This document shows positions 18,055 through 20,884 of a stretch of DNA of 64,000 bases, piece after piece. The notes below the pieces were generated by a model, which had not been told where the DNA came from, did no database searches, and was given only the letters and a program-made list of their open reading frames with translations. Source of the DNA: an uncultured Opitutia bacterium (lineage in GTDB: Bacteria; Verrucomicrobiota; Verrucomicrobiia; Opitutales; Opitutaceae); the NCBI GenBank assembly GCA_903827245.1, contig CAIKHO010000074.1, positions 124,001 through 188,000 on the forward strand, in the 5' to 3' direction. The translations under genes were made by a program, and so were the position numbers. The stretch's first letter is position 1. Every line of letters begins with the position of its first letter.

Positions 18055-20775
18055 ATGCAGTTTGATCTCGATCAGCGCCGCGCCGCCCTGAGCGTGGGCG
18101 AGTTCTCGGACTTCACGTCCGGTCCGCGCGACAGCTCGGGCGGACCGCAGGGTGCCTGGCGGGCGCAACTCGGCACGCACTGGCACCAGCAGCTGCGCGG
18201 GCAGGCCACCGCCGACCACCCCGGCTCCGCGTTTGAAATCCCGCTCACGGGCCAGGTGTTTCACCGCGGGTGGACGCTCACGCTCACCGGCCGCATCGAC
18301 CAGCTGGTCCGCGTCGACAGCGTGCCCGTCATTCGTGAAATCAAGACCGTCACCCGCGCACTCCCGGTAGATGAGCGCGAGTTGCGCGCCGACTATCCCG
18401 GCTATTTCGCCCAGCTCGCCACCTACGTCGCGTTGTGGCGCACCGCCCCTCGTCCCTCGCCCTTGTCCCCCTCTGCCCCTGCCGGGGACGCGACGTCCCC
18501 GTCGCGTTCCTCCGGCGACCGGGAAATCGCCGCTCCATCGCCCGCCCTTCGCGCCGAGCTTGTCTTCGTTGAGACCGGCAGCGGACTCGCCCAGACGGTG
18601 GCGCTGACGCCAGCGGACGACGCGACGTTCCGCACCCAGCTCGATCGCATCGCCGATTTCCTAGACCTGCGCTGGCGCGCCCGCGAACGCCTGCGCCATT
18701 TGCGCTACCGGCCGGCGTTCGCCGGACTTCGCCCCGGACAGGAGACCACCCGCGCCGATCTCGACCGCGCCCTCCGCGAGCACCACGGCCCCATCCTCTT
18801 CGAAGCCCCGACCGGTTTCGGAAAAACCGGCATGCTCCTCGAGTGCGCCCTCGGCCAGCTCCGCTCCGGCCACTTCGAGCGCGTGCTTTACCTCACCAGC
18901 AAATCTACCGGCCAGCTCCAAGTGGTCCGGACGTTGGACGAGATGACGTCGGCGCCGGCCGCCGGCGCAGTTGAAAGTTTGAAATTGAAGGTTGAAAGAC
19001 CGGCCAGCTCCGAACTTTCAACCTTCGACCCTCAACTTTCACCGGCCACCGCCACCGCGGTGGCCGCCTGGCACGTCCGCAACAAGGCTGAGCACTGCAT
19101 CAATCACACCTTCCACTGCGTGCGCGATGAATGTGCCTTTCTCAACGGAGCCGAGGCGCGCTGGGCGCAAAGCGGGCTGGCGCGGTTCTATCTTTTCGAA
19201 AACGAGCCGCACGATCTCGAGACCCTGAAGGCGGCCGGGGGCGCAGCCGTGATCTGTCCCTACGAAATCACGCGCGCCGCCCTCGCGTTCAACGACATTT
19301 GGATCGGCGATTTCAATTATGTCTTCGCTCCCCGCAATCGGGGCCTGTTTTACGAGCAGCCGGGGTTCGACCCGGCGCGTACCCTCCTCGTCCTCGACGA
19401 GGCGCACAACCTGCCTTCGCGCGTGGCCGACGCCCTCTCGCACGTGGCGCGGGCCGACGACGCCCGGGGACTCCTCGCGGAACTGGACCACGTCCATGCC
19501 GCCACTCCGTTGGTCCGCGCCTGGGAAAGCTGGACCCGCCTCCTCGCCGCGCTCGTGCCCGTCGATGCGCTCGATCCCGCGCTCGAGGCCGACGCCGCCG
19601 AAACCCTCTCCGCCATCAACCACCAGCTGGCGGTCCTCCCGCCCGATTCGGCGGCGCTGGGACCGCATTTCGCCGAGGTGCTTTGGCAGACGGCCGCCCT
19701 CGGCGACTGGCTCGCCAACGGCCAGTTGAAAAAACTGCTCTGGTGCCCGCGTGAAGGCGAACTGCACTTCACCTGCTTTGACGCCGCCGAGGCCATCGGC
19801 GAAACGCTGCGCGACTACGGTGGAGTCATATTTGCCAGCGCGACGCTGTCGCCCGCCAGGGAATTTGCCGAGAGCTGTGGGCTTCAGCCAGTTGGCCTCA
19901 GCCCGGTAGGGCGCGGACTCCGTTCCGCGCCGGGCACCACGAAAATCTCAGACGCAGCCGACACACCCCGCCCGTTGGGCACCCCTCTTCTTAGAGGGGA
20001 GCTCGAATCTGGCTCCCCTCTAGAAAGAGGAGTGGCGCCACGCGCCGGGGTGTGTCGGATCGCCGCCCACACCCCTTGGCGCGTCGGCGCCTACGACATC
20101 GCCGTCGACGCCCGGGTCGACACGAGCTTCCAGCAGCGGGCCCGACATCACGCCACCACCGCTGCCGCCGTCGAGGCCCTGCACGCGGCCGCCCAGAATC
20201 CGTCTCCAAGCACAGGCCACCCGCACCCGCCACTCACCGCGACGCGCAGCGTCGCGGTGTTCTTCCCGAGCTACGCCTACGCCGAGACCATCGTGCGCAC
20301 GCTCGACCAGTCCGGTTCCGTGCTCCGCGTGGCCCTGCAGCCGCGCCTGCGCGACCTCGCGGCACAGGCCGCCTGGGTCGAGGAATCCCTGGTGCTCTCC
20401 GATGCGCTCTTTCTCGTCCTCGGGTCGAGCTTCGCCGAGAGCATCGACCTGCTCGGCGGACGCGTGACCCACGCGATGGTCGTCGGCCCCGCCCTGCCCG
20501 AGGTGAACGCCGTGCAACGCGCCCGCCTCGCCGAACTCGCCGGCCTCGGGCGCGAGGAAGCGTTCCGCCGCGTCTACCAGATCCCCGGCATGATCAAGGT
20601 CAACCAGGCCTTGGGCCGCCTCGTCCGTGCACCGGGCCAGCGCGCGCGGGTCATTCTCCACTGCCGGCGTTTCCTTGAGCCAAGCTACGCCAGCCTGCTC
20701 GCGACGGACTACCAGCTCGGGACCAACCTCCTTGAAACCGCGGACCTGACCGCGTGGCTGAACGCGGGTGCGTAG
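18055..20775 (+). CDS. XPD/DinG-type Fe-S DNA helicase with N-terminal PD-(D/E)XK nuclease, carrying palindromic insertions
   Basis: Predicted ATP-dependent 5'-3' DNA helicase. Nuclease part: His43 region, D82 ('GRIDQL'), E95-I-K97 and Q120-x3-Y124, the Cas4/AddB-like motif order. Helicase part: Walker A 'APTGFGKTG' (251-259), four cysteines C347, C354, C359, C400 ('ICPYE') able to hold a 4Fe-4S cluster, and DEAH box D447-H450. The C-terminal half includes 'FFPSYAYAE' and ends with a Q-x-x-G-R-like 'NQALGRLVRAPGQ'. Five palindromic repeats lie inside the frame (residues about 133-163, 305-329, 617-627, 635-668 and 727-735). All keep the frame open and mostly fall in loops between motifs. The TAG stop is part of a GTAG-footed REP. 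Confidence 0.88.
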   Translation: MQFDLDQRRAALSVGEFSDFTSGPRDSSGGPQGAWRAQLGTHWHQQLRGQATADHPGSAFEIPLTGQVFHRGWTLTLTGRIDQLVRVDSVPVIREIKTVTRALPVDERELRADYPGYFAQLATYVALWRTAPRPSPLSPSAPAGDATSPSRSSGDREIAAPSPALRAELVFVETGSGLAQTVALTPADDATFRTQLDRIADFLDLRWRARERLRHLRYRPAFAGLRPGQETTRADLDRALREHHGPILFEAPTGFGKTGMLLECALGQLRSGHFERVLYLTSKSTGQLQVVRTLDEMTSAPAAGAVESLKLKVERPASSELSTFDPQLSPATATAVAAWHVRNKAEHCINHTFHCVRDECAFLNGAEARWAQSGLARFYLFENEPHDLETLKAAGGAAVICPYEITRAALAFNDIWIGDFNYVFAPRNRGLFYEQPGFDPARTLLVLDEAHNLPSRVADALSHVARADDARGLLAELDHVHAATPLVRAWESWTRLLAALVPVDALDPALEADAAETLSAINHQLAVLPPDSAALGPHFAEVLWQTAALGDWLANGQLKKLLWCPREGELHFTCFDAAEAIGETLRDYGGVIFASATLSPAREFAESCGLQPVGLSPVGRGLRSAPGTTKISDAADTPRPLGTPLLRGELESGSPLERGVAPRAGVCRIAAHTPWRVGAYDIAVDARVDTSFQQRARHHATTAAAVEALHAAAQNPSPSTGHPHPPLTATRSVAVFFPSYAYAETIVRTLDQSGSVLRVALQPRLRDLAAQAAWVEESLVLSDALFLVLGSSFAESIDLLGGRVTHAMVVGPALPEVNAVQRARLAELAGLGREEAFRRVYQIPGMIKVNQALGRLVRAPGQRARVILHCRRFLEPSYASLLATDYQLGTNLLETADLTAWLNAGA
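18484..18536. repeat. REP-like sequence inside the helicase gene (1)
   Basis: Contains a GGGGAC-GCGAC-GTCCCC hairpin and, on the other strand, GGAGCGGCGATTTCCCGGTC. The latter matches the intergenic REP at 40084-40107 (GGAGCGGCGACCTCCCGGTC). It encodes a Ser/Pro-rich loop between the nuclease and helicase parts. Confidence 0.6.
18970..19041. repeat. Palindromic repeat inside the helicase gene (2), GTTGAAAG type
   Basis: Left arm 18970-18998 (GTTGAAAGTTTGAAATTGAA...) and right arm 19013-19041 are complementary with few mismatches. The AT-rich GTTGAAAGTT sequence contrasts with the surrounding GC-rich codons. It encodes residues about 305-329, just before the Fe-S cysteines. Confidence 0.75.
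19906..19931. repeat. GTAG-footed REP inside the helicase gene (3)
   Basis: GTAG at 19906-19909, then GGCGCGGA...TCCGCGCC hairpin. The intergenic element at 33843-33868 has the same GTAG-GGCGCG start. Confidence 0.6.
19958..20058. repeat. 101-bp palindrome inside the helicase gene (4)
   Basis: Outer arms CCGACACACCCCG (19958-19970) and CGGGGTGTGTCGG (20046-20058) are exact complements. Inner arms around CACCCCTC...GAGGGG and CCCCTC...GAGGAGTG are also complementary. It encodes residues about 635-668 ('ADTPRPLGTPLLRGE...'). Confidence 0.8.
20235..20259. repeat. 25-bp perfect palindrome inside the helicase gene (5)
   Basis: CACCGCGACGC-GCA-GCGTCGCGGTG. A close intergenic relative, CACCGCGACGCGAACGTCGCG, begins at 44250. 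It encodes 'TATRSVAVF' at the edge of a core strand. Confidence 0.6.
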
Positions 20776-20840
20776 GGGCGTTCCTTGCGAACGCCCGTCT
20801 TCAGACTTCGAACCGGGCGTCCGCAAGGAACGCCCCTACG
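20771..20840. repeat. REP-like inverted pair overlapping the helicase stop codon
   Basis: Arms 20771-20797 and 20814-20840 (CGTAGGGGCGTTCCTTGCGA and complement) match almost perfectly. Each copy has a GTAG foot followed by GGGCGTTC-CTTGC-GAACGCCC. The helicase stop TAG (20773-20775) is the TAG of the left foot. Confidence 0.85.
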
Positions 20841-20884
20841 CCAAGCAAGACGGCTACATTCAATAGCCTGATTCTATCCCGACC

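Follow-up and report, generated by a model that had tools for sequence, protein, structure and literature searches.

Palindromic repeats in the loops of a nuclease-helicase gene of Opitutaceae

Results

A conserved nuclease-helicase with free loops

How does one helicase gene come to hold several palindromes without losing its reading frame, and where do these palindromes come from? The gene lies in the window, the 64,000-nucleotide stretch of DNA analysed here, which is part of a genome (G000) assembled to 3.55 Mb in 91 contigs. The open reading frame at 18055–20775 (+ strand) encodes 906 aa in a single uninterrupted frame, and its product is an N-terminal RecB/Cas4-like PD-(D/E)XK nuclease fused to an XPD/DinG-type SF2 FeS helicase. 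Pfam matches were obtained for the PD-(D/E)XK nuclease (residues 34–146), DEAD_2 (340–463) and Helicase_C_2 (731–883), and rad3 was the top NCBIfam match. In 27 orthologues the nuclease residues D82, E95-x-K97 and Q120-x3-Y124, the Walker A motif APTGFGKTG, the DEAHN box and four FeS cysteines (348/355/360/401) are invariant. The AlphaFold model has a mean pLDDT of 82.5, and its best structural match is DinG of Finegoldia magna (9kqh), followed by XPD; SF2 motifs, FeS cysteines, domain matches and fold thus all identify an XPD/DinG FeS helicase.

Compared with the sister species G002, the core codons show a dN/dS of 0.12, whereas the alignable loop codons reach about 0.65–0.70, roughly five times the core value. 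The helicase core is under purifying selection. In the AlphaFold model pLDDT falls below 50 at residues 137–159, 304–329 and 619–662 and in two other short stretches, and the loops at the first four inserts are predicted to be disordered. The low dN/dS of the core and the high dN/dS of the loops indicate that the gene is conserved while its loops are free.

Four dispersed repeats and one unique palindrome

The preliminary description reported five in-frame palindromes in this gene, lying between conserved motifs. A palindrome is present at all five places and the frame is kept throughout; the fifth is not a repeat. The genome search that it proposed found other copies of palindromes 1 to 4, while the fifth is unique in a 766-kb sample of G000. 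All copy numbers given below depend on the match thresholds.

Palindrome 1 (18484–18536) belongs to the TGGAGC-GCGACCTCCCGGTCGC family and lies between nuclease core elements; it had been assigned to residues 133–163, and the exact motif occupies residues 144–161. Its family is found at about 29 places in G000, the helicase copy counted, and it is absent from the helicase orthologues of G002 and of G029, which represents the nearest genus. Palindrome 2 (18970–19041, residues 306–329) is an AT-rich GTTGAAAG...CTTTCAAC repeat with weak matches at 4 places in G000, again including the helicase copy; it is common to G002, and related repeats occupy the same loop in G005 and G017.

Palindrome 3 (19906–19931, + strand, residues 618–626) is the GTAG-tagged REP GTAGGGCGCGGACTCCGTTCCGCGCC, located inside a 66-nt stretch that the G002 gene is without. 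With up to 2 mismatches it occurs at 29 places in G000 and 37 in G002, while a reversed control pattern gave 0, and many of the copies form +/- pairs 80–90 bp apart. It has the features of a GTAG-REP: GTAG at one end, multiple dispersed copies and inverted pairs, and a hairpin (stem score 8 in our stem search) that agrees with the 5–13 bp stem and short loop of this class.

Palindrome 4 (19958–20058, residues 635–668) is a 101-bp inverted dimer of a ~45-nt unit, whose family occupies 17 places in G000, the helicase copy included, and is almost confined to the genus. Its perfect 13-bp outer arms (19958–19970/20046–20058) are terminal inverted repeats such as MITEs have, and no target-site duplication was apparent by eye in the flanks of the copies inspected. 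Most copies of this family have at least two open frames, so that the choice of frame is a weak filter; the idea that a single open reading frame constrains insertion was dropped for this reason. Neither palindromes 1 and 2 nor the 101-bp element carries GTAG at either end, and they were not classed as GTAG-REPs. A further GTAG repeat lies at the end of the gene, where an inverted pair (20770–20841) supplies the stop codon of the helicase through the TAG of its GTAG (20772–20775).

Palindrome 5 (20235–20259, residues 727–735) has a different character. Its neighbourhood at 717–732 is variable, but its 3' arm codes for RSVAV, the start of a conserved beta-strand (733–737), and no second copy was found in the 766-kb sample. 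Given its uniqueness in the sample and the conserved strand in its 3' arm, we rejected it as an insertion. The statement that the palindromes lie between conserved motifs therefore holds for the first four and fails for the fifth.

Palindromes are depleted from genes in the window's genome

The 766-kb sample of G000 was taken in stretches and its genes were called with a home-made codon-usage gene caller, so the gene counts are approximate. Strong inverted repeats (score at least 14) numbered 93 in 122 kb of intergenic DNA versus 8 in 644 kb of predicted genes; palindromes are thus depleted from genes in this sample, and those of the helicase exceed what chance would give. Other copies of the helicase palindromes are mostly intergenic where inspected. 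When the intergenic palindromes were compared by BLAST with 620 predicted genes, 8 genes matched. Four of the 8 matches lie no further in than about codon 32 and probably reflect misassigned starts; the internal ones are confined to the helicase, mutL, mnmA and a sufB/D-family gene, two of which (the helicase and mutL) are of repair type.

Several individual genes deserve mention. The REP of the helicase recurs in a second repair gene, mutL (L094:14869-16725, - strand; G000:C74:214869-216725), where an in-frame copy of the GTAGGGCGCGGACTCCG repeat at about aa 397–409 lies in the linker between the N-terminal and MutL_C domains. The mnmA gene (tRNA 2-thiouridylase; L085:1176-2321, + strand) carries an in-frame palindrome of the GCGACCTCCCGGTCGC family directly before its KDQSYFL motif (G000:C74:21592-21630), and the SufB/SufD-family gene (L100:11064-12404, + strand; G000:C86) includes the GTGGAGCGCGTTGACCCCAACGCGC repeat in frame at aa 73–82 as an exact 28-nt copy. 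A VWA-domain, BatB-like gene (L064:16499-18379, + strand) appears to be joined to a downstream Gln/Pro-rich segment via a palindrome (G000:C30:17546-17637) that codes for a hydrophobic, signal-peptide-like stretch. Finally, the C-terminus of a YegS/DagK-like kinase (G000:C74:121629-122696, + strand) is made by a GTCACCTATTCGGTGAC palindrome at 122643–122685 (RAQHPKPVCHLFGDKPAWAESY).

Compact outgroups and grown loops in Opitutaceae

We aligned 92 orthologues, one identical pair among them. Those from outside Opitutaceae are compact, at about 743–794 aa, and orthologues with less than 50% identity, about 743–804 aa long in total, have 0–10 residues at each insertion site, while the window gene has more than 110 extra residues at 133–160, 300–335, 611–666 and 717–732, and Opitutaceae orthologues reach about 1000 aa. 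Nearly all of the difference in length falls at residue 90, 133–160, 240, 300–335, 611–666 and 717–732; four of these six length-variable sites, identified from the alignment alone, are palindrome sites. The preliminary description had proposed alignment with orthologues as a check, and gaps or different inserts were indeed found at the palindrome sites. The inserts are lineage-specific, and neither their sequence nor their length is kept between genera, the sites holding different peptides or none.

Across 55 distinct Opitutaceae orthologues, in counts uncorrected for phylogeny, the loops (16.2 kb) contain 29 palindromes of score at least 12 and the core (125.5 kb) contains 6; codon-shuffled genes predict 5.4 in all. 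This inverted-repeat scan is our main statistic, and MFE z-scores on the inserts agree with it. A strong loop palindrome is present in 22 of the 55. Loop growth is not all palindromic, since many inserts are without a palindrome.

At 611–666 about 11 of 27 orthologues have a conserved non-repetitive segment instead of palindromes, which suggests that replacement as well as insertion may have occurred there. This segment reads LGxLNKRxTKKLxxxLTSAADLLRVEEAR and is found in L017, L018, L020-L022, L026, L028, L030, L031, L033 and L034. The same hot spot holds a repeat of another, non-palindromic kind in L023, from G023: a low-complexity run, GQRPGDRGQRTEDGGQRPEVRGQ.

These data bear on two other readings of the gene. 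If the insertions were an artefact, arising from assembly error or a mis-called gene, the palindromes would truly be intergenic; the assembly does consist of 91 contigs, and half of the 8 repeat-matched predicted genes look like start misassignments. However, all insertions in the helicase are internal, with conserved blocks on both sides in one frame, G002 independently carries the 101-bp and GTTGAAAG repeats at the same sites, and dozens of independent assemblies, single-contig genomes included, show the same loop growth. The independent orthologues refute an artefact, which we regard as extremely unlikely.

The insertions could instead be functional, kept in repair genes as modifiers of activity or expression, either through mutator-type modulation or through mRNA hairpins acting on translation of the gene itself. 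Intragenic REPs are over-represented in repair genes, and mutator effects have been speculated upon, in the catalogue available as PMC3733652; among the four sampled genes with internal repeats, two are of repair type. Against this, insert sequence and length are not conserved between genera, other families or none are tolerated, and the loop codons evolve with a dN/dS ~5 times that of the core, so that we consider a functional role quite unlikely. It is likewise highly doubtful that hairpin elements land preferentially in repair genes such as the helicase and mutL, or that selection favours repair genes which carry them. Were this true, for example through an altered mutation rate, repeat insertion would be a recurrent, selected form of protein remodelling in Opitutaceae.

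Unrelated families in the same loops

Comparison with the sister species shows both shared and separate repeats. The G002 helicase shares two repeats with the window gene, each at the same site: the 101-bp element and the GTTGAAAG repeat. The loop that follows residue 90 in G002 contains in addition half a copy of the 101-bp family, and neither the window gene nor G029 has anything there; the G002 gene is without palindrome 1 and without the 66-nt stretch bearing palindrome 3. These differences between G000 and G002 indicate that insertion, or loss, has been ongoing since the species split.

More distant relatives carry other families. The motif GTnACCyATTrGGTnAC is found in the 300–335 loop of G011 (twice), G023 and G036, each of whose genomes holds 23–35 matches, while the reversed control gave none. 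In G025 a GTAG family with dozens of matches in that genome occupies 611–666, and the helicase loop of G003 contains a third, separate family with many near-identical copies elsewhere in G003. At 611–666 three MAG orthologues (L131, L150 and L168) have an inserted GTGGGAGCGAGCTTGCTCGCGA. This last sequence closely resembles Pseudomonas REPs listed in PMC2817692, for which convergence or horizontal REP/RAYT transfer is conceivable. The loop palindromes belong to many unrelated families, which indicates that unrelated elements repeatedly colonise the same loops.

Quasi-palindrome formation offers another possible origin: as relaxed linkers expand, template switching or snap-back replication could create the palindromes on the spot. 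The 103-bp helicase palindrome of G029 has no other copy in G029, which suggests that local formation may contribute for some loop palindromes; one arm of palindrome 5 is the inverse of the adjacent conserved coding sequence and unique in the sample, and a longer form of palindrome 5 occupies this position in G022. What in-place formation does not predict is that palindromes 1, 3 and 4, and those of G003, G011, G023, G025 and G036, have many near-identical genome copies. These copy numbers rule it out as a general cause, and we judge it an unlikely account of the gene.

A REP-bracketed RAYT in the sister species

RAYTs are defined by flanking inverted REPs, which consist of a GTAG head and a GC-rich palindrome with a short loop (Nunvar et al. 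2010, PMC2817692). With a long-stem detector the flanks of the RAYT genes showed little; a short-stem GTAG detector then revealed a REP bracket in G002. There, on L114, a REP on the + strand at 1428 and another on the - strand at 1918 enclose a RAYT (Y1 transposase) domain at 1566–1760. The copy just after the gene is letter for letter palindrome 3 (GTAGGGCGCGGACTCCGTTCCGCGCC), and the inverted copy before the conserved domain differs by one base; palindrome 3 thus has, in G002, a cognate RAYT flanked by two inverted REPs. The RAYT genes of G023 and G005 adjoin GTAG palindromes of other families, and at the threshold applied, GTAG palindromes were not seen beside most of the relatives' RAYT loci examined. 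In G000, whose assembly is 97% complete, a PF01797 search detected no Y1 transposase. Because the REP brackets the G002 RAYT, and GTAG palindromes adjoin those of G023 and G005, RAYT-mediated movement appears to be the best-supported route for the GTAG elements.

Discussion

Very probably, the gene encodes a conserved nuclease-helicase of ordinary kind, and short palindromes drawn from the REP-like pool of its own genome have entered its surface loops again and again. The inserts belong to dispersed repeats, and orthologues are without them or have others at the same sites. Repeat-driven protein growth by several families in one gene, as the preliminary description put it, is well supported for four of the palindromes and does not extend to the fifth. 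The GTAG-REPs would have entered the gene by RAYT-type (Y1, IS200/IS605-like) hairpin transposition, and the non-GTAG palindromes (the 101-bp element, the GTTGAAAG repeat and the GCGACCTCCCGGTCGC family) may have moved by another route. Purifying selection would then have removed out-of-frame, stop-containing or core insertions, leaving those in the loops; in-frame, stop-free insertions may have survived because they are located in disordered linkers between conserved blocks, and the added residues are presumably neutral or nearly so.

With palindromic insertions in more than 20 lineages, in the same few loops, the gene offers a replicated natural experiment in selfish repeats becoming protein. 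The compact outgroups represent the starting state, which lets tolerated insertions and the rate of decay be measured directly. The question from 2013 of whether insertions favour repair genes becomes measurable as well, and repeats should be considered when gene lengths and "orphan" peptide segments in Opitutaceae annotations are interpreted.

Relation to known systems

The best sequence and fold matches to the window protein are Finegoldia magna DinG (PDB 9kqh) and an archaeal XPD (4a15), the profile match to 9kqh extending over nuclease and helicase alike. At ~740 and ~600 residues respectively both are shorter than the window protein, whose greater length is due in part to the disordered loop inserts.

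A catalogue of in-frame intragenic GTAG/CGTC REPs dates from 2013 (Di Nocera, De Gregorio and Rocco, PMC3733652). According to this article, short GTAG-tagged palindromes are mostly intergenic and sometimes lie in frame within ORFs, often in repair genes; Opitutus terrae has the highest number of intragenic GTAG units, with double insertions in its two uvrA genes, and GTAG REPs supply the TAG stops of genes. The window helicase, with its TAG stop from a GTAG repeat, is an instance of such in-frame intragenic repeats, and the main text of the article does not mention it. Site reuse also has a precedent there, in recB of two Xanthomonas species, where different REPs lie at about the same site. 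The window gene differs in combining four families, with one repeat of each, of which three do not have GTAG, and in that unrelated families in many genera have used the same helicase loops again.

With REP/RAYT systems (REPtron, BIME) it shares a RAYT bracketed by two inverted copies of the helicase REP, in G002; however, G000 has no detectable RAYT, and the elements here are intragenic. The comparison with Rickettsia palindromic elements that was drawn at the outset is apt in principle, although the nearest known kind is REP/RAYT, one insert being a GTAG-REP. The Rickettsia elements (Ogata et al. 2000, 2002, as reviewed in PMC10969869) lie in frame in unrelated genes, add tens of residues and comprise several families per genome, and RPE-4 and RPE-6 of R. 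conorii carry a CGTC tag (PMC3733652). Here, too, palindromic repeats lie in frame in unrelated genes (the helicase, mnmA, mutL and the sufB/D-family gene). By eye, a 5' CGTC tag is absent from all four window elements, which work in the manner of Rickettsia elements but were not classed with them; the lineage also differs, and here many families share the same loops of one gene across genera. In-frame intragenic REPs and Rickettsia palindromic elements were thus already known; the novelty lies in the colonisation of one gene's loops by many repeat families, across a bacterial family.
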